Under the pieces are notes generated by a model. That model saw only the letters and a program-made list of their open reading frames with translations, did no database searches and was not told where the DNA came from. Source: a virus. Taken from it: 63,871 nucleotides of DNA. Position 1 is the stretch's first letter. The number at the start of each line of letters is the position of its first letter. Shown here one piece after another: positions 1-63,871 of the stretch. The DNA lies in IMG/VR virus record IMGVR_UViG_3300025012_000086, positions 1 to 63,871 of that record; one strand, written 5' to 3'. A program made the translations under genes and the position numbers.

Positions 1-1520
1 TGACAGCCAAAGAGGAAGACGTTTCCAGCCAGGTGAAGAGGGAGGAAGCCAGAAAGAAGCTCTTCCCCGAGGAGTGGACCCCGAGGGCTGAGAAAGAACT
101 CCAAGATGCCAAGGCTGCAGCAGCTGCAGTAGCCAGGCCCAAAGTCGTCACCGCCCCAGGGTCGGTTGCTGTCGGCAGGTATTTCAAGACTACACCAAAT
201 AGCTCGACCATTGAGGTGGCGAAGCTACTTCCCAGGAGCGAACGTATCGATCCTGGGAAATTGGCGTCGGCTCAGTCGTTGATGGATAAAGCGGTAGCTG
301 GTATTGGTCAGAAAAGAGAACCGTTACGAGTTATTAAAAGGGATGACGGGACAATTAAGGTGTTGGACGGAAATACCACCATACACGAGTTGGCGGCTCG
401 TGGTGAGAAATATGCAGAGGTGCAGTTCGTCCAGAAAGCCACACAGGGTAAGTCTGCCAGCAAGAGCATGGATGCTTTATACGATAGCGCCATGGCGGCT
501 GTCGGCTCAATAAATAAGCATGTTGGCGAAATAGCCGAGGAAACTGGTGGGACGGTAAAATTACGCCCGTTCGAGGGTGGTCTTAAGAAAAGAGAGACAG
601 CAGAGCTGAAGCTTAAAAACAAATACGGTGGTAACGTTTCGATGATTGACGATGTGGTGGCGGCAACAATCATCTACAAAGATTACGACCACATGAAGGG
701 GGCTTTTGACAAGATAAAGAAACAGGAGAATGTTCTGTCGTGGAAAAACAGATACGACCAGGAGAGTTTGGGCGGGTATAGAGATATCCAGTTCACTATG
801 ATCGCCGACAATGGGCATATTTACGAGATGCAACTCAACACAGAACCCATGATGCAGGCTAAAAAACAACTACATGCCCTATACAAGGTGACAGGACTCC
901 TGACTCACGAAAATATAGATAGTGAAATAAAAGCATCGGCACTAGACAGGCTCAACGATCTCATGAATTACGGTTATGATGCCGCACTATCATTAGCCAA
1001 TGGTGGCAGTCAGGATGCTGTCGAAGATTTTCGCTCTGAATTATCTGGCATCGCTGAAGATTCGGCAAGAATTTTAAGTTTAGTTAATGAGTCTGTGACC
1101 TCTGACCGTCTCTCCCCGTCAACCAAGAAGATTCTCCTTGATTTTGTGTCCAGAACAAATAAATCACTACCGTCACCTAACAACACTTCCGTTGATACCA
1201 TATCAGACCCCCTTGTCGCTGGCTCTACTCCAGTGAATATTTTAACCAAACAAAATAATAATGTCAACAGAAATCTAAGTGAGGGCCAAGGTGGGCAAAA
1301 AGCTGCCGAGAAAATTGCCCCAAAAACCAGGCAATTTGAGGGCAACAAAGTCTTTACCGCCGACAAGGTGGAGAGCGCCAGGAAGAGCCTCAAGGATGCC
1401 CGTGGTAGGCTGAGCGCCGGAGTTGACCCTGAGCTGCTGGGTCACGTCATCACTATCGGTGGGGCTTATTTTGAGCAGGGCGTAAGGGATTTCGCCGAGT
1501 GGTCGGGCAAGGTGATCGCC
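1..1520. repeat. Left copy of terminal homology with RelA/SpoT cassette
   Basis: Positions 1-176 align to 62940-63115 with 27 mismatches counted by eye, and about 1309-1520 align to 63660-63871 with about 7 mismatches in 207 bases. The intervening 177-1308 has no counterpart in the right copy. Both blocks are in the same reading frame of the polyvalent gene, and the two copies differ in length by 588 bases, a multiple of three. Confidence 0.9.
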
Positions 1521-4500
1521 GACGCAGGGGAGCATTACCGCAAGTACCTCAAGGAGGGATTCGAGATAGTAAGGAACCATCCTTCATTCTCGAAACAAGA
1601 AAAGAAGATCGGCGATTTCTTTAACTGGGAGCCGCCGACAGACGCCAATGGCAAGATCAAGGGGGCGCCGCCGAACGTCAATTCCAAGGAAGATCTCGAT
1701 AGGATGAGGCTGAAAATCTCACGGCTCCTGAAGGAGGGCGAGGTGGGCCGCTTCTGGTACGAGAATTCCTCCAATGCCATTCTCAAGGCGATGAACGGCG
1801 ACGTAGCCAAGGCCGAGAAATTCATCCAGCTCATAGCCATCTACTCGCCGCAAGCCCAGGTCCAGGCCAATACGGTGTTCGCCGTCAAGGCATGGAACCA
1901 GTTCGTCAACAACGTTCCGAGGGATCAGTTTAAGGTCAAGACCGCAGACCAGGATGGAAAAGCGGTCGATGTTCTCTATGACAACAAGCCATTCGACGGC
2001 AGGAAGACCAACAGTTTCTATATCAATCTCGTCAGCCAGATCATCTACAACGACCCGACAGCCATCGCCAAGATGGACCTCGACTCCTCCACCGTTGCGC
2101 TACTTAAGGAAAAGGCCACAATCGACATGTGGATGAAGCGGGCTTTCGGCTACGACGACATCGTTGTCAGGGACGATAAGGGCACCGGTCAGTACTCATT
2201 CATGGAGAACGAGATACTCAGGGTAACCGATAGGCTGAACGCCAGTCTCAAGAGGGGCGACAAGAAGTGGATTCCGTTCCAGGTGCAAGCCGCTGTTTGG
2301 ACGGCGATGAAGGCCAGGTATGAGGATGCCGTGGTCAAAACCAAGACCTGGAGCGAGTCGGTCAAGAAGGGTTACTCATTTATCGGAGATAACGGCAGGC
2401 CAGAGTTCAAGAAGGACGCAGAGTCACTGAAGCAACACCGTAAGATCTGGCACCGGCAGGCCATGTTACTACCGGCGAGAAAGGCCAGGGAGAATGCAGA
2501 ACTTACCGCAGCAGATTTCTCGACGTTCATCAACAGGGCTACATCGACAATCACCTGGGAGGCGATCCCTAGCTCTTCGTTTGAGTACGATATATTCAAT
2601 GCCTCGCCAGCAGTTAAGCGCATGTTTACTTCTGAGGCTAGGGGGCTGCTGCTGTCGAATGACGGCGCTGACATGTTAGCGCAGAGACTCGGGGTGTCAA
2701 TCTCCTTCGTGAGCGATGGAGCTGGTGCCTACGGTGGTAACGTCAACCCTAACAGTCTCAGCCATGTGGTCCTGGCGAAAGAGGGCGGTGAGTTTGTCCG
2801 CGACAACGCCAGGGATTACGCTCTCGCGATCCAATACATTTTTAAACAGGATGCGGTTCCATGGTTCAGGGCTGATGCGGCTATGCTGTCGAAGGTCAAT
2901 CAGGATAAGCAGAAATTCCGGGTGGTCAACGAGAGGGGCACAACTATCTCACGTCACAATTCCCTGGCCGAAGCCCAGGCTGCAGCGGCAAAACGCGGTG
3001 AATCATTCTCCGTGAAGGGCGGTAAATATGCTCGGGGTGTGGTGGTAGAATTCTCGGAAAACATCACAGAAAACCTAGAAAATAAAGTCCTGGCAGCACT
3101 CGGTGAAGGAGCTGGATTTACTAGGATTTCTAACAACCAGATCGCGATAATAAATTTCAGGGACGACTCGACGGGTGTGCCGTTCGTAGATGACGAAACT
3201 TTCATGGGCGGGGTCCAGTCATTCCTCGACAACCATGGTGCCGATCTCGGTGTTGCCGAGGCGAAATCCATGTGGGCCGAAGGGGAATATGGATACGTCC
3301 ACAACTGGAGCGAAGACGGTAATGGCGAAACGATTCTCGATAAAGGAAGCATCGGTGAACGATCAGATCTACAACGGTGGCTTCGTGATAGGCGGTCAGA
3401 CTTCGAAAGTCTTATCCAGCAATACTCGGGCGAAAACCTCAAGCTCCGTGAGCAAGAAGTCAAGGAATTCGAAAAGCTCGGTGGAATAAAATTCCAGGCC
3501 ATAGAGGTTTCAATCCCCCTCGACTCAGACGGAAATATGAACCTGGTTCACTGGTCACCAGTTCCAGGTATGAAGACTATTGATCCAGACAGATACGGAG
3601 AAGGCATTTCAGGGGCCGAGGCGAAGAGACAGCATGCCGATCCAGACAACTGGGTCAACAGGACATATTACGGGATAGGGGGCGGTGGATACCGCAAGGA
3701 AGTGGGCCTCGGCCAATACCGATACGAGGCCAAGGTTCCTCCCTCGAAGATGTACGATTTTGCCAAAGACCCAGAAGGGCTTAGAGCTAAAGCTCAGGCG
3801 GCTAGGACACAGAATCCATTCATTAATGCTACCAACCTGTACGAGAAATTCATCAAGGACGCTGGATATCTTGGCTACTGGTCAGACATGAATGGTGGAA
3901 AGGTGGCTGCTATTTTTGGCAAGATCACCCCAACCAGGGAGACATTACAACCAGAGGCCGGGGTTAAGCTGCAGGCTGGACTTGGTAAACTCTCTTCAGG
4001 GCTTCCGCGAACAGTATTCGATAGCCTCCTCTCTAGCCTAAGCCCTGGCCAAAGGAGTGTGGCATCCAAGCTGGTAAGCAGCGGCAAGGTGGTGCTTATG
4101 ACAACCGACGAAGCCATAGCCGAAGCCAAGGAAGCCGGATATTCCAAGGCCGAGCTTGATGCAAATCTCGTGCCAATCGGAATAGAGATTCCCGGAAAAA
4201 CCATACTGGTTCCCGAGAACATCCCCAGCGGCGAGTTATGGGGGTCACTGCGTCACGCAATAGGCACCCATATCGGCAGGATGATGGCCAATAGCGCTGA
4301 ATTCCAGATGATGAAGAAAACCATCGATAGGCGGCGCGGAGAAAAGTCAGACACCGGGGATGCTATCAGGCGGGCAATCGAGCAGATTCCAACCGGCACG
4401 GCCAAGGAGGATTTCAGCGAGGAGATCCTTGCCTACATGGTGAGTACGTCAGAGGACGTCGGGATCGTCAGGCGCATTATTGCGATGATAAAAAGTATGG

Positions 4501-7500
4501 TCACGCGCTTCGGAGTTTCGTACAAGATCTTCAACGAGAAGGACTTCAAGGCTCTGGCGGATCTCGCGATCAGGAGGGAAGCACGCAGTGACAAGCCGAC
4601 AATGTTTGACATCGAAGGGATAAAGTTCCAGATGGCTGGCAGGGAAAGCCTCACCACCGGCATCAATATGAGAGACGCCAAAATCTTCCTACGAGATAAA
4701 GGCGTACAGTTGAGTAACGTAGAGCCAGACGATTATCTTAAGCTCGCAGTGTCTCACGGCTACCTCAAGGACGAGGGCAAGCAGCTTTCCCTAATGGAGA
4801 AAGCCCAGGCGATGAAGGAGGGTGGTGCTGACAGGAAATCGATATGGGATGAAACCGGCTGGTGGGAGATGGTTCCAGGTGAATGGCAGTACGAGATTGA
4901 CGACTCCACCGGTAAGTGGGACGCCAGGACTTGGGGCATGATGAAGCCCAATGCAGCCGTGCCTCTTCCTGAGGTTTACAATAATCCACCGCTGTTTAAG
5001 GCGTACCCGTATCTCAAGGAAGTGAGGGTCATTGCAGCGAAGCTCGATCAGGGCCATCTCGGCGGCTGGGACCAGGAGGGAAATATCAGAATCAATATAA
5101 CCCTGTTTGACCCAGCAGCAAGAACAGTCCTTGAGCACGAGATGCAGCACGTCATTCAAGATATCGAGAACTTCTCGAAGGGCGGAAACGTCGCCAATCA
5201 GATCAAGAAGAACCAGGATAAACTCACTCAGCTCGATAGGCAGATAGCCAGTATCAACGAACAAATGTCGTGGATCGCAGCAAACGGGCCACAATACCAG
5301 GGCCAGCTCGTACCTGAGGCCAGGAAGCTCTACGATTCCCTCATGGAAAGCCGAAGCGTACTTGGCGCTGAGTGGGTCGTACTGTCTGGCAACATCAACA
5401 GTATCAGCCACAACGAATACAAACGGTTGACGGGTGAGGTACAGGCCAGGCTGACACAGGCCAGGCTTGGCATGTCGAAAGCGGACAGAAAGAAACATCC
5501 GCCGTGGGAGACTCTTGAGGGAATGCTCATGGGTGAGGGGCTGATGGGTATGAATCAGAAGCCAGAGGATATCCTCATCTCCCGGAAGGACGCTACTTCC
5601 GCAGGTTGGGCTGACTCATACACGCCTACCCCGGCAGTCGGCTCAGTACATCCTGCAGTGACCTTCCTGGATAGGATGGCCAATACAGTTGATTTCAAGG
5701 GCAAGTTTGACGAGATCGCCACCTACTTCTGGAACAGGGATAAAGCGATTGAGCGGGTGCAGGAGAGTATAGGTCCGCAGCCAATCGAGCGGGATCATGC
5801 CACCCTGAAAGGCCTTGTCGGCAAGATTATGGCCAACGACGTTAAGCAGTTTGACAAGAATGTCCTGCAGCCGTTCCTCGATTTCCTGGCAAAGCACAAG
5901 ATCTCTATCCAGGATGTTGAGGAGCTGGCACATGCCCAACACGCACCTGAACGCAACCTGCAGATGCGCCGGGTAAACGCCAGGCGGTACGTTGACAACC
6001 TCCTTATTTTCATGACCGACGCCGAGAAGCGCCCGTGGCAAGACAAGCTCGGGCTTATCCAGGATGAATTCGTCATGAACGACCAGACCAGAAACAAGAG
6101 GCGCGACAACACAATTGCCCTGGTTGAGGAGATGGCCGACACCGTGCGGAGTCAGCGGGCGCAGGTTGACCAACTCGCCAAAGAATTTGCCGCTAGGGTC
6201 TTCACCGCTGAAGAGATCAAAAAAGGCACACCGGAATTCCTGCAAAACCGTCTGCTCAATATGTATGAGAGGCTGGAAAAACGCGAGTCCATTATCGCCC
6301 ACTGGGATGATGTCAAGGGTAGACTCTCGGGAATGACAAATGGACAGGCCAGAGCTATAGAGGACAGATTCCAGGGAAGACAAGAGGTTTACCGGGCAGC
6401 AGAGATGATGCGGTCAATCAGTCGTGCCGCTCTCGATATCAACCATGAGGCAGGGGAACTGACCGATGACGAGTACTCGGCGATCATCGGCACCTATCAG
6501 TACCACGTGCCCCTCATGAGGGAAGAGGCCGATGAAGGGAAGACGCCAACCGGCAAGGCCGGGGTAGGGCCACTTGGCAAGCCGATAAAGATCGCCTATG
6601 GATCTACCAAGGGCGTGGCGCACATACTTGGCCACGTGGTTGACAGATACCAGTCCGCCCTCACACGGAGGCGTAAATTAGAGGCTGGAAGGGCGCTGTA
6701 CGAGATGGTGAAACAAAACCCTGATGAAGGTCTATGGTCAATCGGCGAGCTTGAGAAGGCCCCATATCTCGATAACGAGGGCAATGTCAGATTCTACCCG
6801 GACCAGCAGCTGGACCCGAAATACCAAACCTACGTCAAGGTCGATGGCGTCAAGCACATTATCGAGGTGGCGAAGGATAACCCTATGGCGGTTCGCTTCA
6901 TGGAGGCTATCAATCGCCAGGTCACCCCGCTCGGTCCAATTATCAGGGCGTCTGGTCATGTCACGAGGATACTCGCCAGGCTGTCCACCACATGGACCCC
7001 AGAGTTTACCCTGCCAAACTTTATCCGCGACTTACAGACAGCCATGGTCAATATGTCATCGACCGAAGCAGCTGGTATGCAGTCGAAAGTATTCGGGAAT
7101 ATCCGTAGCGCTGTTGCTGGTATCTACCGCGAGGAGCGCGGGAAACCTTCAGGCCAGTGGGGCGCTATCTACCGTGACGCTGCAGAGAACGGCGTCATTA
7201 TGGGATGGATGCGGTCGTATGATGACGTGGCCCAGTTGTCAGAGAAGATCCAGTCGGACCTTGAGATGAAGAAGGGCGGGCACAAGATCAAGGAGAACTT
7301 CATGCGTCTCGGTAATTTTATCGAGAGCGTCAACCTATCTGTCGAGAACGGCGTCAGGGTGGCAACATATCAGGCCCTGGTAGAATCAGGGATCGACAAG
7401 CGTAACGCGGCCCGTATTGCCTCCAACCTGACAGTTGATTTCACGAAACACGGTACGGCAGGGCCAGCGATGAACTCGCTCTGGATGTTCGCCAACGCCG

Positions 7501-8537
7501 GAATACAGGGCAACGTGCGGATACTACAGGCCGTAACATCCTCGCCGACTGTCAGAAAAACGGTAGTTGGTATCGCTGCATTTGGAGCATTCGCAAGCTT
7601 CCTTGGCGCTATTGCTGGCGGTGACGACGATGACGGGGAGTCCTACTATGATAAGCTGAAGCGGACAAACCCGGCGCTGTTTGAGCGCAACATAGTGCTC
7701 ATGGTTCCCGGTGGCGAGGGCAAACATATCAAGGTTCCTATGGCCTACGGGTACAATATCTTCTTCAAGTTTGGCGAAGAGATAGGTAGCGTCATGCGGG
7801 GGCAGAAGCCCGTAGAGGCGGCTATCAGATGGGGCAAGGCCTTCATTAATAACTTTAACCCACTGGCCGCTGGCACCATCCTGCAAACCGTGGCACCTAC
7901 CCTTCTGGACCCGCTTGCCCAGGTAAGAGAGAATGCTGCATGGCACGGTGGTCCTCTCATGCCTGCCGGTAACCCGTGGGCGAATCAGCCAGACAGCGAG
8001 CTTTATTTCAAAGATGTAAACCCGGCGTCTAAGGCGGTGACCGAGTGGCTCAATAGACATACCGGTGGTAGTAAGTACCGGGAAGGGGCGATCTCTGTTT
8101 CGCCCGAAACTATCGAGATGCTGGTCGAGACATTTACTGGCGGTGCCGGTAAGATGGCCAAAGACGTACTGAATCTTCCGTTCGCAGTAGCAGATGGCGA
8201 TCTGTCGATCCGAAATGTCCCAATAGCCAGGAGGTTGATAGGCACCATGCCCACAGGAATAAACCGTCAGATCTACTTTGAGAACCGCGAGGAGATGAGC
8301 ACCTTCGTTCGCGAGCTGAAGAGTGCAACCAAGGACGACAGACCAGGACTGATTCGCGAGCCGCTATACAAGATGGTCGGTGCCTTTGAGAGGACCGAAG
8401 AGAGAATCCGGGATCTCAATAGGCAGAAAAAAGAGATCGTCAGTAAGAAGGGCAATACTGATAGGATCGATAAGCTGATCGAGGACGCGCAAGTCGATTT
8501 TAATAAAAGATACAACAAGGCCCTTGGCCGAGATTGA
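3..8537 (+). CDS. Giant polyvalent virion protein, C-terminal part (5' end outside window)
   Basis: The frame is open to the left edge, so this is a fragment; a GTG at 33 is not its true start. Segments in order: ParB-like (about nt 201-430, with a DGNTTIHEL motif); RelA/SpoT-like nucleotidyltransferase (about 543-897, with GYRDIQ and EMQLNTEPM); a conserved helical block (1366-1575); several unnamed domains; an ADP-ribosyltransferase-like segment (about 3538-3930, HWS and RTYYGI motifs); a zincin-like segment whose HExxH reads HAIGTH (4254-4271); an intact zincin with HEMQH (5136-5150), like LPD23; long helical regions; and a C-terminal LPD38-like domain (about 6990-8530) with a hydrophobic helix near 7549-7630. 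Such proteins are packaged in phage heads and injected with DNA (known of the family). Its N-terminus is probably the gene starting at 61100, across the circle junction. Enzyme activities are inferred from motifs only. Confidence 0.9.
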   Translation, partial: TAKEEDVSSQVKREEARKKLFPEEWTPRAEKELQDAKAAAAAVARPKVVTAPGSVAVGRYFKTTPNSSTIEVAKLLPRSERIDPGKLASAQSLMDKAVAGIGQKREPLRVIKRDDGTIKVLDGNTTIHELAARGEKYAEVQFVQKATQGKSASKSMDALYDSAMAAVGSINKHVGEIAEETGGTVKLRPFEGGLKKRETAELKLKNKYGGNVSMIDDVVAATIIYKDYDHMKGAFDKIKKQENVLSWKNRYDQESLGGYRDIQFTMIADNGHIYEMQLNTEPMMQAKKQLHALYKVTGLLTHENIDSEIKASALDRLNDLMNYGYDAALSLANGGSQDAVEDFRSELSGIAEDSARILSLVNESVTSDRLSPSTKKILLDFVSRTNKSLPSPNNTSVDTISDPLVAGSTPVNILTKQNNNVNRNLSEGQGGQKAAEKIAPKTRQFEGNKVFTADKVESARKSLKDARGRLSAGVDPELLGHVITIGGAYFEQGVRDFAEWSGKVIADAGEHYRKYLKEGFEIVRNHPSFSKQEKKIGDFFNWEPPTDANGKIKGAPPNVNSKEDLDRMRLKISRLLKEGEVGRFWYENSSNAILKAMNGDVAKAEKFIQLIAIYSPQAQVQANTVFAVKAWNQFVNNVPRDQFKVKTADQDGKAVDVLYDNKPFDGRKTNSFYINLVSQIIYNDPTAIAKMDLDSSTVALLKEKATIDMWMKRAFGYDDIVVRDDKGTGQYSFMENEILRVTDRLNASLKRGDKKWIPFQVQAAVWTAMKARYEDAVVKTKTWSESVKKGYSFIGDNGRPEFKKDAESLKQHRKIWHRQAMLLPARKARENAELTAADFSTFINRATSTITWEAIPSSSFEYDIFNASPAVKRMFTSEARGLLLSNDGADMLAQRLGVSISFVSDGAGAYGGNVNPNSLSHVVLAKEGGEFVRDNARDYALAIQYIFKQDAVPWFRADAAMLSKVNQDKQKFRVVNERGTTISRHNSLAEAQAAAAKRGESFSVKGGKYARGVVVEFSENITENLENKVLAALGEGAGFTRISNNQIAIINFRDDSTGVPFVDDETFMGGVQSFLDNHGADLGVAEAKSMWAEGEYGYVHNWSEDGNGETILDKGSIGERSDLQRWLRDRRSDFESLIQQYSGENLKLREQEVKEFEKLGGIKFQAIEVSIPLDSDGNMNLVHWSPVPGMKTIDPDRYGEGISGAEAKRQHADPDNWVNRTYYGIGGGGYRKEVGLGQYRYEAKVPPSKMYDFAKDPEGLRAKAQAARTQNPFINATNLYEKFIKDAGYLGYWSDMNGGKVAAIFGKITPTRETLQPEAGVKLQAGLGKLSSGLPRTVFDSLLSSLSPGQRSVASKLVSSGKVVLMTTDEAIAEAKEAGYSKAELDANLVPIGIEIPGKTILVPENIPSGELWGSLRHAIGTHIGRMMANSAEFQMMKKTIDRRRGEKSDTGDAIRRAIEQIPTGTAKEDFSEEILAYMVSTSEDVGIVRRIIAMIKSMVTRFGVSYKIFNEKDFKALADLAIRREARSDKPTMFDIEGIKFQMAGRESLTTGINMRDAKIFLRDKGVQLSNVEPDDYLKLAVSHGYLKDEGKQLSLMEKAQAMKEGGADRKSIWDETGWWEMVPGEWQYEIDDSTGKWDARTWGMMKPNAAVPLPEVYNNPPLFKAYPYLKEVRVIAAKLDQGHLGGWDQEGNIRINITLFDPAARTVLEHEMQHVIQDIENFSKGGNVANQIKKNQDKLTQLDRQIASINEQMSWIAANGPQYQGQLVPEARKLYDSLMESRSVLGAEWVVLSGNINSISHNEYKRLTGEVQARLTQARLGMSKADRKKHPPWETLEGMLMGEGLMGMNQKPEDILISRKDATSAGWADSYTPTPAVGSVHPAVTFLDRMANTVDFKGKFDEIATYFWNRDKAIERVQESIGPQPIERDHATLKGLVGKIMANDVKQFDKNVLQPFLDFLAKHKISIQDVEELAHAQHAPERNLQMRRVNARRYVDNLLIFMTDAEKRPWQDKLGLIQDEFVMNDQTRNKRRDNTIALVEEMADTVRSQRAQVDQLAKEFAARVFTAEEIKKGTPEFLQNRLLNMYERLEKRESIIAHWDDVKGRLSGMTNGQARAIEDRFQGRQEVYRAAEMMRSISRAALDINHEAGELTDDEYSAIIGTYQYHVPLMREEADEGKTPTGKAGVGPLGKPIKIAYGSTKGVAHILGHVVDRYQSALTRRRKLEAGRALYEMVKQNPDEGLWSIGELEKAPYLDNEGNVRFYPDQQLDPKYQTYVKVDGVKHIIEVAKDNPMAVRFMEAINRQVTPLGPIIRASGHVTRILARLSTTWTPEFTLPNFIRDLQTAMVNMSSTEAAGMQSKVFGNIRSAVAGIYREERGKPSGQWGAIYRDAAENGVIMGWMRSYDDVAQLSEKIQSDLEMKKGGHKIKENFMRLGNFIESVNLSVENGVRVATYQALVESGIDKRNAARIASNLTVDFTKHGTAGPAMNSLWMFANAGIQGNVRILQAVTSSPTVRKTVVGIAAFGAFASFLGAIAGGDDDDGESYYDKLKRTNPALFERNIVLMVPGGEGKHIKVPMAYGYNIFFKFGEEIGSVMRGQKPVEAAIRWGKAFINNFNPLAAGTILQTVAPTLLDPLAQVRENAAWHGGPLMPAGNPWANQPDSELYFKDVNPASKAVTEWLNRHTGGSKYREGAISVSPETIEMLVETFTGGAGKMAKDVLNLPFAVADGDLSIRNVPIARRLIGTMPTGINRQIYFENREEMSTFVRELKSATKDDRPGLIREPLYKMVGAFERTEERIRDLNRQKKEIVSKKGNTDRIDKLIEDAQVDFNKRYNKALGRD

Positions 8538-8854: not shown

Positions 8855-8863
8855 GGTGCGGCT

Positions 8864-12248: not shown

Positions 12249-12464
12249 GGCAAGCCCAACCATCGCAGCGATTCCGTCAGCCACGGCGTCGCTGAGCTTT
12301 TCCTTCGTCACGAGCAGATTGGAGTAGTCGATCATCTGCTGTTCAAATCGCTCCCATTCATAATCCCTCCCACCGGCAGGGTTTACAGCCACCCCAGGCA
12401 TATTGATGCCCATTATGTTTGCTATCCTCGCCAGAAGAAACGCGTGACATCCTTCCTTGTTCAT
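12240..12464 (-). CDS. Hypothetical small protein
   Basis: 74 residues, last gene of the leftward recombination/replication operon. Its ATG overlaps the stop of the RuvC-like gene by 4 bases. It looks helical, with an amphipathic N-terminus and a charged middle (RDYEWERFEQQMIDY). No family recognised. Co-translation with the RuvC-like nuclease hints at a role in the same pathway. Confidence 0.6.
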   Translation of the reverse strand: MNKEGCHAFLLARIANIMGINMPGVAVNPAGGRDYEWERFEQQMIDYSNLLVTKEKLSDAVADGIAAMVGLAKK

Positions 12465-12973
12465 ATTGACCTTTGTAATTTGAATTCAGATTTCTTTCCA
12501 CCTATGAGCACGGCATGACGTATGAGAATGGCGTCGGCAATATGCTCAAAGTCCTTCTTAAATTTCGGGAAAGCTGCATGCGGGTATTTGGCCCTGGCCC
12601 AGTTCATCACGTCGTCCTTGTCGGCCATGCTATCGTGGAGTACCCTCTTCTTGGCCTCCCGTGGGTATACCCCAGTGATAGGGATGTTCCTGGAGTCGAT
12701 CACGCCAATGACTACTCCAATTGCCAGGTACATGGTGGTGCAGGCCTTGGACGACAGTGACCCGGTCGGAAATTCCATATTGACACCGGATACATCCATG
12801 AGTAGGTCGCGAACGCTGACGGTCAACTCCGAGGCATTCAAGGCGTATCCGGTGCTTACGTCGCAGCACCCGCATTCTACGATTCCTATGCATCCGAAGT
12901 CGGCCAGGCACTCCTCCTCCCAGAGCGCCCAGCCGGTATGTCTCAGTGCAACGTCGAGTGACAGGTATCTCAC
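12461..12973 (-). CDS. RuvC-like Holliday-junction nuclease
   Basis: 170 residues with an RNase H/RuvC arrangement: first strand SLDVALRHTGWAL supplies the leading Asp, a central VNMEFPTGS supplies the Glu, and a C-terminal helix HIADAILIRHA supplies the last Asp. Phage RuvC relatives cut branched DNA before packaging. It sits in an operon with SSB and a ParB-like protein, overlapping both neighbours by 4 bases. Catalytic residues look complete. Confidence 0.75.
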   Translation of the reverse strand: MRYLSLDVALRHTGWALWEEECLADFGCIGIVECGCCDVSTGYALNASELTVSVRDLLMDVSGVNMEFPTGSLSSKACTTMYLAIGVVIGVIDSRNIPITGVYPREAKKRVLHDSMADKDDVMNWARAKYPHAAFPKFKKDFEHIADAILIRHAVLIGGKKSEFKLQRSI

Positions 12974-17321: not shown

Positions 17322-17847
17322 TTGTCTTCCCCCGAAATTGTTTTATAAACGCTGCAGCGGACGAGTTGTTGTCGTCATACGGGAAACCGAGACACTGCTC
17401 TGCGGCATACCTATGACATACCGCTTCGGCGATGTCGTGGAATCTGCCAAGGAACACCTGCTTGCCATGGATGGCTATTTGCGCCTGCCATCTCCCCCGG
17501 CTTCTGCATATTCCACAGACCCCAGTAGTGTTGTTGCTGTTGAGGCTTCTGTTTCTCTGCTGCTGCTGGTGTGTCACAACCCGCAAATTTTTACGCCAAT
17601 TATGATGCCTAATTCTGTCTTCATGGTCAACGGTGTCACAGTTATCAATATAACCATCGGTATATATTATAGCTAGTCGATGCGCACCATACATATAACC
17701 ATCTATTTTCACAACAACATATCCATCGCTATTAACACAACCTGCGACTTCACCAACGGTAGCGCCGTGAACATACTTTCTCCACGTGAACAAGCCAGTG
17801 TTCATGTCGTAACAAAGTAGCTCCCTCAACCTGTCTTGCGTTATCAT
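17314..17847 (-). CDS. HNH homing endonuclease with AP2-like domain (copy 1)
   Basis: 177 residues. An N-terminal helix and strand are followed by the HNH_3-type core (TVDHEDRIRHHNWRKNLRVVT) and a C-terminal AP2-like DNA-binding beta sheet (GVCGICRSRGRWQAQIAIHG) ending in a RYAAEQCLGF helix also present in the 40310 copy. The ATG overlaps the exonuclease stop (ATGA) and its end overlaps the phosphoesterase start by 8 bases, an unusually tight fit for a mobile gene. A free-standing homing endonuclease is the likely identity. Confidence 0.85.
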   Translation of the reverse strand: MITQDRLRELLCYDMNTGLFTWRKYVHGATVGEVAGCVNSDGYVVVKIDGYMYGAHRLAIIYTDGYIDNCDTVDHEDRIRHHNWRKNLRVVTHQQQQRNRSLNSNNTTGVCGICRSRGRWQAQIAIHGKQVFLGRFHDIAEAVCHRYAAEQCLGFPYDDNNSSAAAFIKQFRGKTNG

Positions 17848-18440
17848 TTCATCCTTGATACAAGCTCGTCAAGCTCGCGACAGAAACAAATTAGTTCGTG
17901 GCGTAATTTCGAGATAAGAATCTCATCTCTGGGTATTCTCAGGATTAATGGCACCTCGCTCTCGTGGTATGAGATGAAGTACCACCACGGCCTGCCGGTC
18001 ACCAACATGCAGCCCTGGACCTGCAGAAGATACTTCGAGGGAAGGACGCCACGGCGCAGGTATTCAATATGGGTCTTTTGCTCGGGAGATTTGGCCTCGC
18101 ATCCTCCTTCCTGGCCGATAAGACCATCGGGGGAACAGCCGTAGAGCCGGTCATCAGACAGACAGAATCCGACAGGGGTAATCTCCACATCCTCCACCAT
18201 GGAGAGCACGGCCAGCGCCTTAGGCTCATTGCGAATGCCGTCAGACATGGGGTTGGACACGAAGGCCTCCTGCATCTGCCCGGTTATGCGCTCCTGGGCG
18301 AGGATCTTCATGTAGCCGTCACGCTGACCGCTCCTCGCCCCCTTGGTTGTCATGATATGAGAGAACTTCGAGGCGGTGGGCCTCCCTACCCTCGCCTCGT
18401 ACCATTCCGGGGTCCGTTGATCACAGTCGATTATGATCAT
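17844..18440 (-). CDS. YqaJ/lambda-exonuclease-type recombination nuclease
   Basis: I chose ATG 18440 because it overlaps the upstream stop (ATGA) and begins MIIIDCDQRTPEWYEAR, the usual start of this family; a longer reading adds 35 non-conserved residues. The 198 residues carry the PD-(D/E)xK core: NEPKAL, then CSPDGLIG and CEAKSP, then the LLQVQGCMLVTG helix. It should degrade one strand of duplex DNA to feed the annealing protein encoded just upstream. Confidence 0.85.
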   Translation of the reverse strand: MIIIDCDQRTPEWYEARVGRPTASKFSHIMTTKGARSGQRDGYMKILAQERITGQMQEAFVSNPMSDGIRNEPKALAVLSMVEDVEITPVGFCLSDDRLYGCSPDGLIGQEGGCEAKSPEQKTHIEYLRRGVLPSKYLLQVQGCMLVTGRPWWYFISYHESEVPLILRIPRDEILISKLRHELICFCRELDELVSRMK

Positions 18441-19282
18441 TTTTTCTGCCCCTCTTTGAATTCCTTGTAAGCCTTGCATTCGCCTGAGCAGGTAGCCGCC
18501 GAGCACATTTCCCCGGAGAGCATGAGGCCTGGAACTTGCGGGCACTCGAAGGTTGCGACCGCTGGCTTCTCCTCGACCTTAGTTTCGGTCTTGGTTTCCG
18601 GCTTTTTCCCGGCCATCTCCTTCTCTTTCTTCTTCTTTTTGATAGCGATCTGCTTCATCAGACCGGCTACATTCTTCGCCTCGATCTCGCTAAGCTCTTT
18701 GACGCCAGCCAGGTCTTTGAATTTGATCATATCCGCGCCGCTATCAACCAGCTCCTTCTTCATCGTTTCGAGCTGGGAGGCACTGATAAACACCTTCTTG
18801 TCCTCAGGTTTTTCGCCTTCGACTTCTCTGTACTTGGAACCGTCCCATAGTCCAGCATAGACGTCAGCAGCGACACCGAGCATCTTCATAGCTACCGACA
18901 GGGCGTCGGTAATAGCCATCTTGAAAGCCTCGTCGGAGGAGTAGAGTCCATTGGTTTCTTTCGCCGTGAACATGGAGCCACCAAGGCCCGGTATCGGTTC
19001 AGACCACACACCGTCAAGCTTGTACAGAAGCTCGATAGTGGCGAACGCGCACACTTGACCATCGACCGCAGCTTCAAGCCACTTTTCGGTAACCCTGTAC
19101 TTCCAGCCGAAGCCGCACGGCCCAAAGGTTTGCGTCATGGCCATGTAGCGCCACTGGGGGTTGATGTCGGTCTTGCCCTTCAGCCTGCCAGCCTGAATCG
19201 GGCGCAGGAATTGACCTGGGGGCTTCTCGACGCTATTCCATACCCTCATGTTTTTGTCAACGCTTTCTTCTTTTTCCGCCAT
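18437..19282 (-). CDS. Rad52-superfamily single-strand annealing protein
   Basis: Start ATG 19282 has AAAGGAG upstream; an in-frame ATG at 19318 lacks one. The 281-residue protein has an N-terminal core with TFGPCGFGWKYRVTEKW and a later SDEAFKMAITDALSVAMKML helix, as in Rad52/DUF1071-type phage recombinases. A lysine-rich linker follows, then a C-terminal Cys segment (CPQVPGLML...CSAATCSGECKAY) that may bind zinc. It is coupled to the exonuclease by a 4-base overlap, forming the classic annealase-exonuclease pair. Confidence 0.8.
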   Translation of the reverse strand: MAEKEESVDKNMRVWNSVEKPPGQFLRPIQAGRLKGKTDINPQWRYMAMTQTFGPCGFGWKYRVTEKWLEAAVDGQVCAFATIELLYKLDGVWSEPIPGLGGSMFTAKETNGLYSSDEAFKMAITDALSVAMKMLGVAADVYAGLWDGSKYREVEGEKPEDKKVFISASQLETMKKELVDSGADMIKFKDLAGVKELSEIEAKNVAGLMKQIAIKKKKKEKEMAGKKPETKTETKVEEKPAVATFECPQVPGLMLSGEMCSAATCSGECKAYKEFKEGQKK

Positions 19283-34908: not shown

Positions 34909-34930
34909 TCCTGGCTCGAGAAAATCCGGA

Positions 34931-35104: not shown

Positions 35105-35106
35105 CT

Positions 35107-35373: not shown

Positions 35374-35376
35374 GCC

Positions 35377-36376: not shown

Positions 36377-36427
36377 CTGTTATCCGACAACTATCAAAAG
36401 TTCAACAAACCAGCCAATGGAGCGAGA

Positions 36428-37387: not shown

Positions 37388-37547
37388 GCGACATGCATAG
37401 ATGGTCACGACCATGGAAGGCGGCGAGGAGCACAGGGGAATAACCAAGTACCCGTCAATATATAACCGGCTCGATTCGACTGCGACATCCCTCTCGTCGG
37501 GGGTAAATCGCCTCTGCGTTTTTTCTGTGCAACCGATCAATGGTCAT

Positions 37548-37583
37548 GGTACTGTACAATCTAATGATGAATTGTACAGTACC
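37548..37583. promoter_or_regulatory. Perfect 13-bp inverted repeat (operator or attenuator)
   Basis: GGTACTGTACAAT (37548-37560), 10-base loop, ATTGTACAGTACC (37571-37583), followed by TTTTCCTTTT and GGAGG before the ATG at 37603. It could be an RNA hairpin terminator/attenuator or a dimeric repressor site. Confidence 0.6.
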
Positions 37584-38982: not shown

Positions 38983-40302
38983 ATGATCAAGACGTATTCA
39001 CAAAGAGATCTTGTCCTCGACATACCGGATAAATTCCTCTTCCTGTTCCAGCCAAAAGACTTCAAGGTGGCCAAGGGTGGACGGTCAAGCGCCAAGTCCT
39101 GGAGCTTCGCCCGCGCTCTCGTCGTCATAGGCTACGCCGAAGAGAAGCGTATCCTCTGCACTCGTGAAGTCCAGAACTCCATTGACGAATCGGTATACCA
39201 GCTACTCAAAGACCAGATCCGCCTACTTGGCCTGGACTGGTTCTATACCCCGTTCCGTGACAGGATTGTCGGCCAGAATGGTACGATCTTTGCATTCGAG
39301 GGACTGGCCACTCACACTATCACCTCCCTGAAGTCATACGAGGGATTCGATATCTGCTGGGTAGAGGAGGCTCACGCCGTCAGTAAGCGGTCATGGGACG
39401 TCCTAATCCCGACCATCCGGAAGGAAGGGTCCGAGATCTGGGTCACCTTCAACCCCGAGCTGGAGAGCGACGAGACGTACAAGAGGTTCGTTACCGAAGC
39501 TACGCCTGACCGGTATTATGTGGTTCATGTCACCTGGCGGGATAATCCCTTCCTCACCGCAAAATCGAATGCAGATCGCCTGGAGTGCAAGCTCAAGCGC
39601 CCAGACGACTACGACAACATCTGGGAAGGCCGCTGCAGGCCTGCCGTGGCTGGAGCCATCTACTACAAGCAGATGGACGAAATGCTGCGACAAGGCCGCA
39701 TATGCAACGTTCCTTACGACCCCTTCCTGAAGGTACACGTCATATCCGACATCGGCCTGAACGACACCACAGCGCTTATCATGGCACAGCGCCGCGCCTC
39801 CGAGATCAGGATTATCGATTACATAGAGGACAACCGTAGGACGTGGGACTCGTACTCAATCGAGCTGAAAGAGCGCAAGTACAACTGGGGTAGGCTCTGG
39901 CTCCCACATGATGGCTTCGCCGCCGATATGAAGAGCAACGGCAAGTCGTCCGCAGACATCCTTCGCAAACTTGGCTGGGACGTGCCAGACCGGGAGGAGA
40001 TCGTAGAGCGTTCTATCGAGGAGGGCATTAAGGTCGCTCGCATGACCATGCCCAGGATCTACGTCGATGTGAAGAAGGCCGCACGGCTCATCGAATGCCT
40101 CAAGCGGTACAGGCGGCACGTCTCGAAACAGACCCTCGCCGAGACAGGCCCGGTCCACGACGAATTCAGCAACGGTGCCGACTCCTTCCGCTACCTCTGT
40201 CTCAACATCGAGAAGATGACCAATGAGGAACGCCGTGGCATGCGCATGCCGAACAGGTTTACTCGCTACGGTCAGCCGCTGGATGACGGCGTCGGTTATT
40301 AG
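38983..40302 (+). CDS. terL: Terminase large subunit
   Basis: 439 residues. ATPase: Walker A-like KGGRSSAKSWSFARAL, Walker B DICWVEEAH, coupling motif TFNPE. Nuclease: HVISDIGLNDTTALIMAQ and later DGFAADMKSNGKSSADIL. The layout is the Terminase_3/PBSX-type translocase-nuclease that docks on the portal. No ribosome site fits the space between promoter and ATG, and no good in-frame start follows before the conserved core. It is followed by an HNH gene and then the portal. Confidence 0.95.
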   Translation: MIKTYSQRDLVLDIPDKFLFLFQPKDFKVAKGGRSSAKSWSFARALVVIGYAEEKRILCTREVQNSIDESVYQLLKDQIRLLGLDWFYTPFRDRIVGQNGTIFAFEGLATHTITSLKSYEGFDICWVEEAHAVSKRSWDVLIPTIRKEGSEIWVTFNPELESDETYKRFVTEATPDRYYVVHVTWRDNPFLTAKSNADRLECKLKRPDDYDNIWEGRCRPAVAGAIYYKQMDEMLRQGRICNVPYDPFLKVHVISDIGLNDTTALIMAQRRASEIRIIDYIEDNRRTWDSYSIELKERKYNWGRLWLPHDGFAADMKSNGKSSADILRKLGWDVPDREEIVERSIEEGIKVARMTMPRIYVDVKKAARLIECLKRYRRHVSKQTLAETGPVHDEFSNGADSFRYLCLNIEKMTNEERRGMRMPNRFTRYGQPLDDGVGY

Positions 40303-52283: not shown

Positions 52284-53618
52284 ATGCCAAACGAATACTA
52301 TAATCCAACCGGCGTTCCTGCGGACGGCTCCAGGACTGGCAGTCAGCCTGTCAGGGCGGAATTCGACCTAATTGAGGCTGGAGCTAACAAGCTTCCGCTT
52401 ATAGCCAGCCATGGTAGCCAGGGGATTTCCGTTAACGGAGCAGCAGATGGTCTTGAGTCGATTTCCAACGCCGCATACAATTCAAGAATAGGATCTCTCG
52501 ACAGCACCAAGAAGGATGCCGCAGACGGTTACGCAGGCTTGACCCTGTTGAAAATTAACATAATTAACGCTATTGGAACCATAGCCTCATTTTTCACAAA
52601 CTCTAATACAGCGTCAAGAACATACACTTTCCCGGACAGCGACGGAACGGTGCTGACCAAAGAGAATACCCTTAACTGGGCTAGGAGAAATGTAATAATA
52701 AACGGCGGATTCAATATATGGCAGAGGGCAACCACCCAGGTTGATACCGATGGGTATTACTCTGACGACAGGTGGCTCAACGGTAGATGGCAATCGCTTG
52801 CTACACACACCAGAGAGAGCTTTACCAATGGCCAAACCGACGTACCTGGAAATCCAAAGTTCTTCTCAAGAACCGTGGTTGCGTCGTCACCTGGCGCAGA
52901 TCATTACTGCCACAAGGAACAGAAAATAGAGAATGTTGAGACGTTGTCTGGGGGGATGGCGACGCTATCTTTTTGGGCCAAATCAGACGCCATTAGGAAT
53001 ATGGCGATTGAGTTGTATCAATTCTTCGGAACTGGAGGGGTGGTTCCGTCCGATACGGTATACGGCATAGGCTCACAAAAAATAAGTTTAACTGCTTCGT
53101 GGCAGAAGTTTACGCTGTCCATCGATATACCATCCGTCTCTGGAAAGATAAAAGGCAATACGTTCGACGAATGGAATGGTAACGACTACCTATCTCTGGT
53201 ATTCTGGTTTGATGCTGGTGGTGATTTCGACTCAAGGACTGCGTCTCTTGGCCAGCAGTCGGGTACTTTTGACATAGCTAACGTACAACTAGAGAAAGGT
53301 TCGTCGGCTAGCGAGTTCGAATTATACTCACCGCAGACAGAGTTGAAAATGTGCCAAAGATACTACCAAACTGTCGAGGTGTTATTTAGCGGCAAAGTTA
53401 CCTCTGGACAGACCTACAGAATGATAACCGACCTGCCGGTAATGCCAAGGGCGTATAATTACGGCAGGGATACTTTGTCGTCTAGCGATATAAACTTTGG
53501 CACAACAAGTTCCATTGGTGCATGGACTCACTTCTATTATTTTACGGCAGTTGCCAACGGGTCGGGCATGGGGCAATATAGGTCTACAATATATATTGAT
53601 GCTGAGCTGGAAAACTAA
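52284..53618 (+). CDS. Tail fibre protein B (paralogue of A)
   Basis: 444 residues with the same plan as the preceding gene: PNEYYNPTGVPADGS start, the identical NSNTASRTYTFPDSDGT segment, INGGFNIWQRATTQ...DDRW, and LKMCQRYYQ near the end. The binding region is diverged, so the two may recognise different receptors or form a hetero-assembly. Starts 3 bases after the previous stop. Confidence 0.85.
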   Translation: MPNEYYNPTGVPADGSRTGSQPVRAEFDLIEAGANKLPLIASHGSQGISVNGAADGLESISNAAYNSRIGSLDSTKKDAADGYAGLTLLKINIINAIGTIASFFTNSNTASRTYTFPDSDGTVLTKENTLNWARRNVIINGGFNIWQRATTQVDTDGYYSDDRWLNGRWQSLATHTRESFTNGQTDVPGNPKFFSRTVVASSPGADHYCHKEQKIENVETLSGGMATLSFWAKSDAIRNMAIELYQFFGTGGVVPSDTVYGIGSQKISLTASWQKFTLSIDIPSVSGKIKGNTFDEWNGNDYLSLVFWFDAGGDFDSRTASLGQQSGTFDIANVQLEKGSSASEFELYSPQTELKMCQRYYQTVEVLFSGKVTSGQTYRMITDLPVMPRAYNYGRDTLSSSDINFGTTSSIGAWTHFYYFTAVANGSGMGQYRSTIYIDAELEN

Positions 53619-60065: not shown

Positions 60066-61096
60066 TGGCTAAAGACTACGCAGCGTGGGCCGGGCTTCTC
60101 GGAGGGGTTGCAGACCTTGGGAAGGATTATCAGAAGCGGCAGCAAGCCCTGGAGGACGAACAATTGCGCGTCACCCAGGAGATGAGGAAGGAACAGGCCA
60201 TGCTTACCAGACAGCAAGCTCTGGCTAAATTCCAGTACGACCTTGGTGCGGACGAGAGGGCAGCTGAGCGTGCCCATAAATTCACCAAAGAAGAGCAGGA
60301 AGCCGAGGACAAGAGGGCTGAGCGTGAGGAGCGCAAGTCTGAACGAGAGGAGCGGTCCAAGCGTGAAGAGCGTCAGGAGAAGAGATCCCAGGAATCCCTT
60401 GATATTCAGCGGAAACAGGCTGATAAACCTGGGGAGCTGGAGCGTAAGCTTGAACAGATCGAGAAGTCTGATCTCTCCCCGGAAGAAAAGGCTACCGCCA
60501 AAAGGAATGCCCTTGGTGCCACAAAGGGGAACCTGACCGAATTCCAGGAGTCGAGGCTTCGCTCCGATCTGGCCAAGCTCGAAGATACCGGGATCGATGA
60601 AACCAATATAGCGCAGGTTAACAGGTTGCGTCAGCAGTTAGGCGAACCACCCCTCTCGAAGAAGGTTAAAACTCCTGCAAAAAAAGGAATATTGGGATTC
60701 GGAAGCCAAGATGAGGAAGTGGAGTTTACAACTGACCAACCCGGTGGTATAGTATCTTCTGGAGGGGGATCAGAAGCCGCCGCTCCTGGACTCGACAAGT
60801 ATCAGTCGATGCTCAAACAGTCTGGCGGTATAGTTGAGATGGCCGGTCCTCCACCGACAGCACCCGCTCCACCCGCAGGCGAAACAGCGATGACGCCAGG
60901 CGAAGAAGGTGGCGGGCCACTCATCGCGCCAGAACAACTGGAGAAACTGGATACAATGACAGTTCCCCAGCTCCAAGCCCTGAAGATGGGACTTCTCGAA
61001 AGCGGTGATAAAGCTGCCATACAGTCAGTAGAGGGACAAGCCCTACTGCAGCGGATCAATCAGTTGATCCAGCAGAAATCACAACTCGTGAGATGA
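60065..61096 (+). CDS. Internal virion protein, charged coiled coil
   Basis: 343 residues. The first 30 are mildly hydrophobic (AAWAGLLGGVADLGKDY), then a long Arg/Glu coiled coil (about 55-130, ERKSEREERSKREERQEKR), then a Pro/Gly region and a C-terminal helix. No catalytic motif. Directly precedes the polyvalent gene. Confidence 0.65.
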   Translation: MAKDYAAWAGLLGGVADLGKDYQKRQQALEDEQLRVTQEMRKEQAMLTRQQALAKFQYDLGADERAAERAHKFTKEEQEAEDKRAEREERKSEREERSKREERQEKRSQESLDIQRKQADKPGELERKLEQIEKSDLSPEEKATAKRNALGATKGNLTEFQESRLRSDLAKLEDTGIDETNIAQVNRLRQQLGEPPLSKKVKTPAKKGILGFGSQDEEVEFTTDQPGGIVSSGGGSEAAAPGLDKYQSMLKQSGGIVEMAGPPPTAPAPPAGETAMTPGEEGGGPLIAPEQLEKLDTMTVPQLQALKMGLLESGDKAAIQSVEGQALLQRINQLIQQKSQLVR

Positions 61097-61099
61097 TCA

Positions 61100-63871
61100 A
61101 TGATCCCATTCGAGCAGATCGAAGGCCTACCTGAATATCAGAGTGCCACCCCGGAACAAAAGCTCTCAGTCCAGAACGAATACGCCAAAGACTTCTGGAC
61201 TGAGGTTTATCAAGACCAGGAATTCCAAGCAGCACCAGAAGAAGAGCGGAACCAGCTGATCAGCACTTTCGACCAGCGTTTCGGCCCAGACGTCCGTGGT
61301 TTTGTAGAGGAACAGATCGAGGGAAGCCGTCGAGGGTTTCTGGCGAATATGTTCGCCCTCGTGAAGTCCGGTGGAAAGGCGACTCTGGCAGCTTCCAGGA
61401 TTGCCGACGACATGGCCAGCGGTGAGCTTGACAGCAATACAGCCTCCATCCTGGCCGAAAGCATCCTTGCCGAACAGAAGAAATATACCCCGGAAGAATT
61501 GCGAGAGCTACAGGAGGCAGTGGTCGAGCCGTCCGAGGAATGGGAGAAGGCCGAGGGCCTTAGCGAGAAAGCCAAGGCCGCATGGGACATGATCAAGGCT
61601 GTTGCCGGTCAGGCTGCTTTCAACCCCAAGGGCATGGCCTATATGACCGCCGAGCAGGCTGGCAACATCGTTCCTGGTATGGCCGGTATGGTTGGCGGTG
61701 CGAAGGCTGGGGCCGGTGTCGGTAGTGTCGTTCCAGGCGTAGGGACAGCCGCTGGCGCGACGATAGGCGGTGTCGTAGGTGGCTTTCTTGGACAGTGGGG
61801 GATCGAGGCTGGATCTGAATTTCGTGGCATGGTGGCACAGGAATTGCAGAGACGAGGCCTGCAGCCAACCGAGGAGAACGTCCTTGAGATACTGGCTGAC
61901 GATAAATTCGTTGAGGAGTCAATCGATAACGCCAGGGATAAGGCCACGGCCACATCCGCCGTAAGCGCAGCAATGAACGTTGCCACCGGCAGGATTGCCT
62001 CCGTCCCTTTCAAGGCAGCGCAAAAAGAGGCCATCGCCAGATTGGGTGCCGATGCTACGGCTGACCAGGTCAGTATGGCCACCAAGGAGATCCTCGCCTC
62101 CAGGACACTGACGCAGCGGGCAGCTACCGGCGCAAAGGCCTACGGAGCACAGGTTGCCGAGGAACCATTATCAGAGGCCGCTGGCCAATATGCCGGATAT
62201 GGCAAGGTTGATCTGGGGGAAGTTGGCCTTGAGACTCTTGGCGGCATAGGTGGATCTGTCGCAGAAACGCCAGCAGCCATCTCTTCATTCGGTGAGGGCG
62301 TCAAGGCTGGCACTCAGCAGCAGGCACCTCCTCCACCCCCTGAACCTATTGATGTAAAACCGGTCGAGCCGGTATCTATTCTGGCCGCAGAGAGCCTTGA
62401 GGAGGCTATAGGCGCTTTCAGGAATTCCCTCAACGTGAACCAGGAGCCAACTCCAGGAGCAGAGCCAATAGCGACGCCGTGGGGAACAACCGCAGAGGAT
62501 TCCGCCAGAGTATTCGAGGAGGCTGGTATCACTCAGGCCGAAGAAGACATAGCGGCGCGTGAGGCCGAAGGCGACATAAGAACAAGGAGACAGGCCGACC
62601 TTGAAGAGGCGTTTGCCGGGGAGTTACAGCCGTCATCTGCGCAGGAATCAGCCGAGGTGTTCGCCGCCTCGCCAGAGACAGGTCTTGAGCAGAAGCTTGG
62701 CCGGGTCGAAGAGGGTGCAAAATTCGCCGGTACTGAATACGCTAAGCCGCCAGTGGCCAAGACCGAGAGGCGTGAAGCTGCGGAGGAGGCATTCACGGAA
62801 GCGCCTGCAGAATTTGCCAGATCGAGCGGTGCCCCATTTTCGAGCGAGAAGGCCCTCAGGACGAGCGCTAAGCAACGCGGGGTGGATCTATCAGGTTACA
62901 ACGTGATCGAGCGACAGGGTGGCTTTGTGGCTACTCCTGTGGCAGCTAAAGAGGAAGACGTTTCGGCGCAGGTAAAAAGGGAGGAGGCTAGGAAGAAGCT
63001 GTTCCCGGAGGAATGGACCCCCAGAGCCGAGAAAGAACTTCAGGACGCCAGGGCTGCAGTCGCTGCAGTAGCCAGGCCCAAAGTCGTCACCGCCCCTAAG
63101 TCAGTTGCTGTCGGCCAGGAAGTTGCAGTGGAGCCAACCGAACCGCAGAAAGAGGCCGGGAATTATAAAAAAGCACATGTCTCTATCGACGGCCTTGATA
63201 TCAGCGTGGAGAATCCGGTAGGCAGTGTTCGTAGTGGAATCAGCAAAGAGGGCGAGCCGTGGTCAACCGAGATGAAGAGCGACTACGGATATGTCCGTGG
63301 AACCAAGGGGTACGACAAGGATCATCTCGACGTATTCATCAAGCCAGGCCATGCTGGCGGAAGCGAGAATGTCTTTGTCGTCAACCAGTATAACCAGGCT
63401 GGGAAATTCGATGAACACAAGGTCGTGCTCGGTGCTCAATCCGAGAGAGAGGCCATGGAGATCTACAACTCCAACTATGCGAAAGGGTGGACTGGCGGAA
63501 AGTCGGTAGTCTCTATGCCGATGGCCGAATTTAAGGAGTGGTCTAAGAGTGGGGGGCCTGCTCGTGGCGCTCTTACACAGGGGGCGGTCAAGACCGAACC
63601 CACCAAGGCCGAGCCGCAGGAGGCTGACGTTGCCGAGATAGTAGAGCAAAAAACTGCAGAGAGAATTGCCACAAAAACCAGGCAATTTGAGGGCAACAAA
63701 GTCTTTACCGCCGACAAGGTGGAGAATGCCAGGAAGAGCCTCAAAGATGCCCGTGGTAGACTGGGCGCCGGGGTTGACCCTGAGCTGCTGGGTCACGTCA
63801 TCACTATCGGTGGGGCTTATTTTGAGCAGGGCGTAAGGGATTTCGCCGAGTGGTCGGGCAAGGTGATCGCC
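61100..63871 (+). CDS. Giant polyvalent virion protein, N-terminal part (3' end outside window)
   Basis: 924 codons, open at the right edge. I chose ATG 61100 over 61093, which overlaps the upstream stop out of frame. Residues 1-130 are helical; 189-238 form Gly zippers (MVGGAKAGAGVGSVVPG) that may insert in a membrane. A long Glu/Ala/Pro-rich linker follows. At nt 63179-63552 lies an inorganic-pyrophosphatase-like (InPase, polyvalent-type) domain with SDYGYVRGTKGYDKDHLDVF. The last 200 bases match 1309-1520, placing this as the other end of the gene beginning the window. Likely packaged and injected with the DNA. Confidence 0.9.
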   Translation, partial: MIPFEQIEGLPEYQSATPEQKLSVQNEYAKDFWTEVYQDQEFQAAPEEERNQLISTFDQRFGPDVRGFVEEQIEGSRRGFLANMFALVKSGGKATLAASRIADDMASGELDSNTASILAESILAEQKKYTPEELRELQEAVVEPSEEWEKAEGLSEKAKAAWDMIKAVAGQAAFNPKGMAYMTAEQAGNIVPGMAGMVGGAKAGAGVGSVVPGVGTAAGATIGGVVGGFLGQWGIEAGSEFRGMVAQELQRRGLQPTEENVLEILADDKFVEESIDNARDKATATSAVSAAMNVATGRIASVPFKAAQKEAIARLGADATADQVSMATKEILASRTLTQRAATGAKAYGAQVAEEPLSEAAGQYAGYGKVDLGEVGLETLGGIGGSVAETPAAISSFGEGVKAGTQQQAPPPPPEPIDVKPVEPVSILAAESLEEAIGAFRNSLNVNQEPTPGAEPIATPWGTTAEDSARVFEEAGITQAEEDIAAREAEGDIRTRRQADLEEAFAGELQPSSAQESAEVFAASPETGLEQKLGRVEEGAKFAGTEYAKPPVAKTERREAAEEAFTEAPAEFARSSGAPFSSEKALRTSAKQRGVDLSGYNVIERQGGFVATPVAAKEEDVSAQVKREEARKKLFPEEWTPRAEKELQDARAAVAAVARPKVVTAPKSVAVGQEVAVEPTEPQKEAGNYKKAHVSIDGLDISVENPVGSVRSGISKEGEPWSTEMKSDYGYVRGTKGYDKDHLDVFIKPGHAGGSENVFVVNQYNQAGKFDEHKVVLGAQSEREAMEIYNSNYAKGWTGGKSVVSMPMAEFKEWSKSGGPARGALTQGAVKTEPTKAEPQEADVAEIVEQKTAERIATKTRQFEGNKVFTADKVENARKSLKDARGRLGAGVDPELLGHVITIGGAYFEQGVRDFAEWSGKVIA
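62940..63871. repeat. Right copy of terminal homology with pyrophosphatase cassette
   Basis: Positions 62940-63115 align to 1-176; about 63660-63871 align to 1309-1520. The unique part (63116-63659) encodes the InPase-like domain in place of the ParB/RelSpo segment of the left copy. The frame is preserved at both joints. Confidence 0.9.

Follow-up and report, generated by a model that had tools for sequence, protein, structure and literature searches.

Polyvalent proteins of phages and conjugative elements were described by Iyer et al. in 2017 (PMC5512222). In the domain descriptions of that paper, pyrophosphatase, RelA/SpoT, ddrB-ParB, and LPD38 are among the domains found only in the phage-type proteins, and the authors propose two alternative roles for the pyrophosphatase, removing pyrophosphate or cutting signaling nucleotides, and suggest that RelA/SpoT sets off an alarmone-like response. 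The same paper reports up to 50 domain combinations for the jhp1044-type proteins of Helicobacter prophages (PMC5512222). Domain turnover in polyvalent proteins has so far been inferred from between-species comparisons.

The DNA analyzed here, which we call the window, is the whole of IMG/VR virus record IMGVR_UViG_3300025012_000086 (63,871 bases). Comparison of its two ends by blastn identified two shared stretches, flank 1 and flank 2, and no match joining the ends beyond these two (Table 1). The copies of flank 1 are identical at 149 of 176 positions (85%; E 1e-51) and those of flank 2 at 216 of 226 (96%; E 3e-102), E values that exclude chance similarity. The original prediction had put flank 1 at about 85%, as found, and had given about 97% identity between 1309-1520 and 63660-63871; the second similarity is real, but its head copy starts at 1295 rather than 1309. 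Between the flanks lie 1118 bases at the head and 530 at the tail, unrelated in sequence and differing by 588 bases, or 196 codons, with the frame open in both, just as had been predicted. The head frame spans 2844 amino acids and is open on its 5' side; the tail frame spans 924 amino acids and is open on its 3' side. Because the flank 1 copies differ by 18 synonymous and only 5 nonsynonymous codons, both are under coding constraint.

Three contigs carry the close relatives of the megaprotein gene that our protein scans recovered: G001 (IMG/VR contig 3300025009_000110; 60,676 bases), which is near-identical to the window in places; G002 (3300025009_000102), a distant relative; and G003 (3300025087_000064; 61,666 bases). 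G001 and G002 each align collinearly with the window when it is drawn as a circle, and they are opened elsewhere, at about 31.7 kb and about 24 to 28 kb of the window, respectively. The first bases of G001 fall at 31.5 to 31.9 kb of the window and its last at 31.7 to 32.5 kb; the 126 bases with which it opens are found again near its end. This collinearity indicates that the window ends are adjacent and lie inside one gene, and G001 indeed runs across them as a single frame of 3441 amino acids. The suggestion that the genome is circular or permuted is thus borne out. The window's terminase large subunit is 45% identical to that of Pseudomonas phage H66, which we take to be an F116-like phage. 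The F116 genome is circularly permuted and terminally redundant, and headful packaging is expected for F116 relatives (PMC5217972). A permuted genome would therefore also be expected from the packaging type, and by analogy the window phage probably packages by a headful mechanism. The contig is best explained as a phage genome (about 62 kb) that is circularly permuted and nearly complete and that the assembler opened inside the megaprotein gene. Isolated phages gave no near DNA match to the window, and an exact 42-base probe from the head copy of flank 1, used to seek near-identical contigs, gave no match in the records searched, from which near relatives may be missing.

Table 1. Coordinates of features in the window
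Feature	Position	Strand	Basis or remark
Flank 1 beside cassette A	1..176	+	blastn against tail copy
ParB-like domain	174-437	+	Weak profile and fold matches
Cassette A, ParB-like plus RelA/SpoT-like	177..1294	+	Profile and fold matches
RelA/SpoT-like alarmone synthetase domain (putative)	453-1022	+	PF04607, Tas1 profile, fold
Flank 2 after cassette A	1295..1520	+	blastn against tail copy
C-terminal chassis of megaprotein, shared	1521..8537	+	Domain matches and motif
DUF7178-like	1743-2312	+	Profile match below cut-off
LPD23	4779-4913	+	E 2.4e-12, above Pfam cut-off
HExxH motif as in zincin metallopeptidases	5136-5150	+	Residue 1712 of head protein
LPD38	7686-8222	+	E 9.5e-35, above Pfam cut-off
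RuvC-like Holliday junction resolvase	12464..12973	-	phrog_159 match
YqaJ-type viral recombinase/exonuclease	17847..18545	-	PF09588; candidate for cassette exchange
Terminase large subunit	38983..40302	+	45% identical to Pseudomonas phage H66
N-terminal domain and low-complexity linker, megaprotein gene start	61100..62939	+	Common to G001, G002, G003
Flank 1 beside pyrophosphatase cassette	62940..63115	+	85% identical to 1-176; related stretch in G003
Cassette B, inorganic pyrophosphatase PF18823	63116..63645 (best stretch 63143-63547)	+	E 7e-51
Flank 2 after cassette B	63646..63871	+	Linker domain common in phage polyvalent proteins
Terminal 99 bases	63773..63871	+	Exact copy of 1422-1520; sole repeated 99-mer; read as assembly-graph junction

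The two window frames of 2844 and 924 amino acids abut in the relatives as one gene of 3441 to 3542 amino acids. Over its first 300 residues, the N terminus is 89% identical in amino acids to that of G001 and 56% to that of G002; the match to G003 is best over the first 76 residues. An HExxH motif is present in the megaproteins of the window and of all three relatives, and those of G003 and G002 also match the putative metallopeptidase DUF6782 below its cut-off. A search of NCBIfam gave no match. By its number of domains, its length, and its LPD domains, the predicted protein is of the phage polyvalent type. Like the proteins of Iyer et al., it is very large and multidomain, with an HExxH motif, LPD38, a pyrophosphatase, and putative ParB-like and RelA/SpoT-like domains; LPD23 is the only domain type of the window that we did not match to the descriptions in that paper (PMC5512222). 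Orthologous megaproteins with rearranged domains, including RelA/SpoT and ParB, also characterize the jhp1044-type Helicobacter proteins, but as described there that case centers on PBECR RNase domains, whereas in the window a pyrophosphatase alternates with ParB plus RelA/SpoT in one slot (PMC5512222). Large proteins of Stx phages and Vibrio phages (phrog_616 and relatives) align with the C-terminal 740 residues at about 28% identity. Such proteins cover 26% of the window protein, and the chassis adjoining the slot was not found in them. A Spirochaetales MAG contig (JAAZAT010000158.1) carries a relative of that part of the chassis at 38% identity, a possible hint of related prophages or hosts. 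Directly downstream of the megagene, the genes at 8855-11283 lack a detectable counterpart in G001, and a 565-amino-acid frame among them has no family match.

The pyrophosphatase of cassette B matches PF18823 over the full length of the profile (172 bits against a cut-off of 26.8; positions 2 to 135 of 135). For the second domain of cassette A, sequence and model comparisons support assignment as a putative RelA/SpoT-like alarmone synthetase. It matches PF04607 with 24.8 bits (E 2.8e-5), under the curated cut-off of 27, and Tas1 in a profile comparison (E 5.7e-6). A structural model of modest confidence (pLDDT 64) has small alarmone synthetases as its best Foldseek matches (8vx3; E 2e-6). Alignment to Tas1 further shows that a conserved Tyr (GY) and a Glu-x-Gln motif (ExQ) are kept in all three RelA/SpoT-like sequences. 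Assignment of the preceding domain as ParB-like is weaker, with phrog_1033 as the sole profile match (E 0.07), weak ParB and sulfiredoxin folds in Foldseek, and no match in Pfam. The RelA/SpoT cassette was not found in sequenced prokaryote genomes or isolated phages. For the DarB-like family phrog_10089, the profile matches flank 2 as well as the window pyrophosphatase and the sequence around it, but not the RelA/SpoT cassette itself; we ruled it out as a family with pyrophosphatase and RelA/SpoT in tandem, as its second match is due to flank 2.

The slot of G001 and of G002 contains ParB and RelA/SpoT and no pyrophosphatase, and that of G003 contains a pyrophosphatase, after a flank-1-like stretch, and no RelA/SpoT. 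None of the three has both cassettes, so the two window ends match two architectures that each exist alone. Flank 2 itself occurs widely as a linker in polyvalent proteins and is present in a single copy in 104 of the 105 megaproteins that carry it. Together with the single occurrence of bases 1-99 in the window, these comparisons favor two alternative alleles of one polyvalent-protein slot in a circularly permuted phage, a reading that we consider probable. The original prediction had proposed two alleles at a domain-exchange site and had advised looking for each cassette at this locus in related genomes; the relatives support the proposal, with one cassette apiece.

Tandem duplication, the alternative named alongside that proposal, is disfavored by the same data. 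A true tandem gene would read flank 1, pyrophosphatase, flank 2, a gap, flank 1, ParB-RelA/SpoT, flank 2, and chassis, with the assembly broken in the repeat. Polyvalent proteins can gather many domains, and domain duplications are described in Helicobacter prophage proteins (PMC5512222); a repeat within one genome would also yield an overlap of 99 bases at a contig end (PMC10914622). Such a gene would nonetheless encode at least 3768 amino acids (924 plus 2844), above all three full-length relatives (3441, 3542, and 3451 amino acids, each with one cassette). Two cassettes or two copies of flank 2 occur in 0 of these 3 relatives, and two pyrophosphatases in one protein in 0 of the 105 flank-2 megaproteins. 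In a clonal tandem gene, moreover, the head of the contig should start inside the repeat, yet bases 1-99 are not repeated. We therefore regard a tandem gene as unlikely.

The break at the tail of the contig points to the assembly graph. The terminal 99-mer is the only one present twice in the whole window, and the copies mismatch at the first base outside it. In simulations, metaSPAdes and MEGAHIT leave shared ends of maxK bases where repeats break contigs, and IDBA_UD leaves maxK-1; the same paper, which presents COBRA, also simulated within-population variation as a second cause of contig breaks and used a length of 99 (PMC10914622). The repeated 99-mer is thus a strong hint, although not proof, that a short-read assembler met a branch. 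The start of the contig calls for something more, since bases 1-99 are unique: either a haplotype beyond the two alleles or a gap in coverage. The assembler may also have chosen how cassette A joins the chassis. If assembly halts at the first 99-mer that two branches share, the last 99 bases of the contig are bound to be identical, so the contrast between 85% and 97% that had been taken to mark a recent recombination edge is partly an artifact. Flank 2 without these bases (1295-1421) is identical at 117 of 127 positions (92%), which leaves that interpretation unsupported; the small remaining contrast dates nothing.

We also considered a chimeric assembly, in which one cassette would come from a distantly related phage joined through a short identical stretch. 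The exact shared stretch is just 99 bases, and the COBRA authors state that their contig-based method is blind to chimeras made during assembly (PMC10914622). Against this, 92% identity persists in flank 2 upstream of those 99 bases, and at the opposite edge of each cassette the flank 1 copies agree at 85%, which places both cassettes in copies of one gene that are closely related. A false join would still leave both alleles in the sample beside near-identical flanks. A chimera accordingly seems quite unlikely, and two alleles of one slot remain our preferred reading. A more distant megagene, at 3745-6390 of contig 3300025000_001060 (L022), ends with its contig inside the pyrophosphatase domain, perhaps at another assembly break in the slot; with an N terminus 28% identical and an incomplete domain, it was left out as a further pyrophosphatase gene of the window type.

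The distribution of flank 1 bears on the history of the head allele. Flank 1 is present at the head, at the tail, and, diverged, in G003; it is absent from G001 and G002, in which ParB directly follows the N-terminal linker. This pattern suggests that the head allele is a gene of the pyrophosphatase type in which ParB plus RelA/SpoT took the place of the enzyme while flank 1 stayed. The low GC3 of cassette A (0.37 to 0.52, versus 0.65 for the head chassis and 0.63 for the pyrophosphatase) fits such a replacement. Alignment with G001 shows sharp edges around the slot: there are 2 mismatches over 60174-61426, identity then falls to about 75% through the slot to about position 1925, and it is perfect over 2047-2870, so that the divergent block sits between tracts of about 99.8% identity. 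Throughout the window, tracts of about 100% identity to G001, mismatch-free for up to 1.2 kb, alternate with tracts of 75 to 90%, a mosaic pattern which suggests that coexisting relatives recombine often. Because the slot block is one of many such tracts, ordinary homologous recombination among co-infecting relatives would suffice to explain it.

Two in-frame alternatives with shared flanks do resemble the layout of a shufflon, in which a site-specific recombinase would swap the cassettes within one genome. However, the cassette borders contain no direct or inverted repeat of at least 11 bases, no second stored copy of either cassette was found elsewhere in the window, and no serine or tyrosine recombinase was present among the window proteins scanned, which represent part of the open reading frames. 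Given also that the whole genome is mosaic relative to G001, a programmed switch is highly improbable, and we did not class the locus as a shufflon or site-specific cassette switch, as border sites were not found, nor was a recombinase among the scanned proteins.

Other local features of the window emerged from these comparisons. A clean stretch of 2775 bases (34802-37576) is absent from G001, where the flanking matches adjoin at a single base. The stretch includes a GIY-YIG endonuclease gene (35954-36376) and resembles an insertion of a mobile endonuclease. At 26630-26676 lies a 47-base imperfect palindrome, 89% self-complementary, that also matches G001 at 4993-5038 on the opposite strand. 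The adjacent genes at 50949-52280 and 52284-53618 encode 443 and 444 amino acids and are probably tandem paralogues, sharing a 142-base stretch of 77% identity (51174-51314 and 52509-52649); the 443-amino-acid product has a weak carbohydrate-binding match.

The generality of the slot was surveyed with Pfam in the 400 residues before flank 2 of 65 nonredundant megaproteins. A pyrophosphatase was recognized in 13 to 14 of the 65 and a C5 DNA methylase in 3, with ddrB-ParB, an ADP-ribosyltransferase, and an RQC domain in 1 each; the others had no Pfam match, and the RelA/SpoT cassette of the window type was seen in 0 of 65. Assorted modules therefore precede flank 2, with pyrophosphatase the commonest recognized. 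That the slot is a dedicated site at which a single phage lineage trades enzymes for nucleotide pyrophosphates (pyrophosphatase for alarmone synthetase), kept polymorphic in one population by selection that host defense or metabolism imposes instead of drifting with the mosaic genome, is an idea that we consider rather doubtful.

Domain mosaicism in polyvalent proteins is already published, and the window is a new case of it. What is new here is the allele pair between near-identical flanks and the resolution of its boundaries to the base. Unlike the between-species comparison described by Iyer et al. (PMC5512222), the window presents two cassettes between near-identical flanks in apparently one sample. 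The near-identical flanks and the G001 tracts of about 99.8% identity give exchange boundaries at base resolution. In practical terms, a lack of simple end repeats need not mean that a virus contig is incomplete: the genome can be circular and essentially whole, with the contig broken where the population is polymorphic.

The ends of the window thus probably represent a population caught swapping enzyme modules. The sampled population would hold two alleles of the slot, pyrophosphatase and ParB-like plus RelA/SpoT-like, between an N-terminal region with flank 1 and a C-terminal chassis preceded by flank 2. The alleles would sit in different molecules, and the assembler would have begun the contig in one and finished it in the other, stopping at the first 99-mer at which they rejoin. 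Co-infecting phages may exchange cassettes by homologous recombination through the matching flanks, possibly with the aid of the exonuclease and resolvase that the phage itself encodes. By analogy with its family, the megaprotein may be packaged in the virion, enter the cell with the DNA, and be cut by its own putative metallopeptidase. A swap would then change the nucleotide-active enzyme delivered at the start of infection, from cleavage of pyrophosphate or nucleotides to alarmone synthesis or the reverse, and the two unrelated in-frame cassettes provide a natural allele pair for testing the use of each module to the phage.
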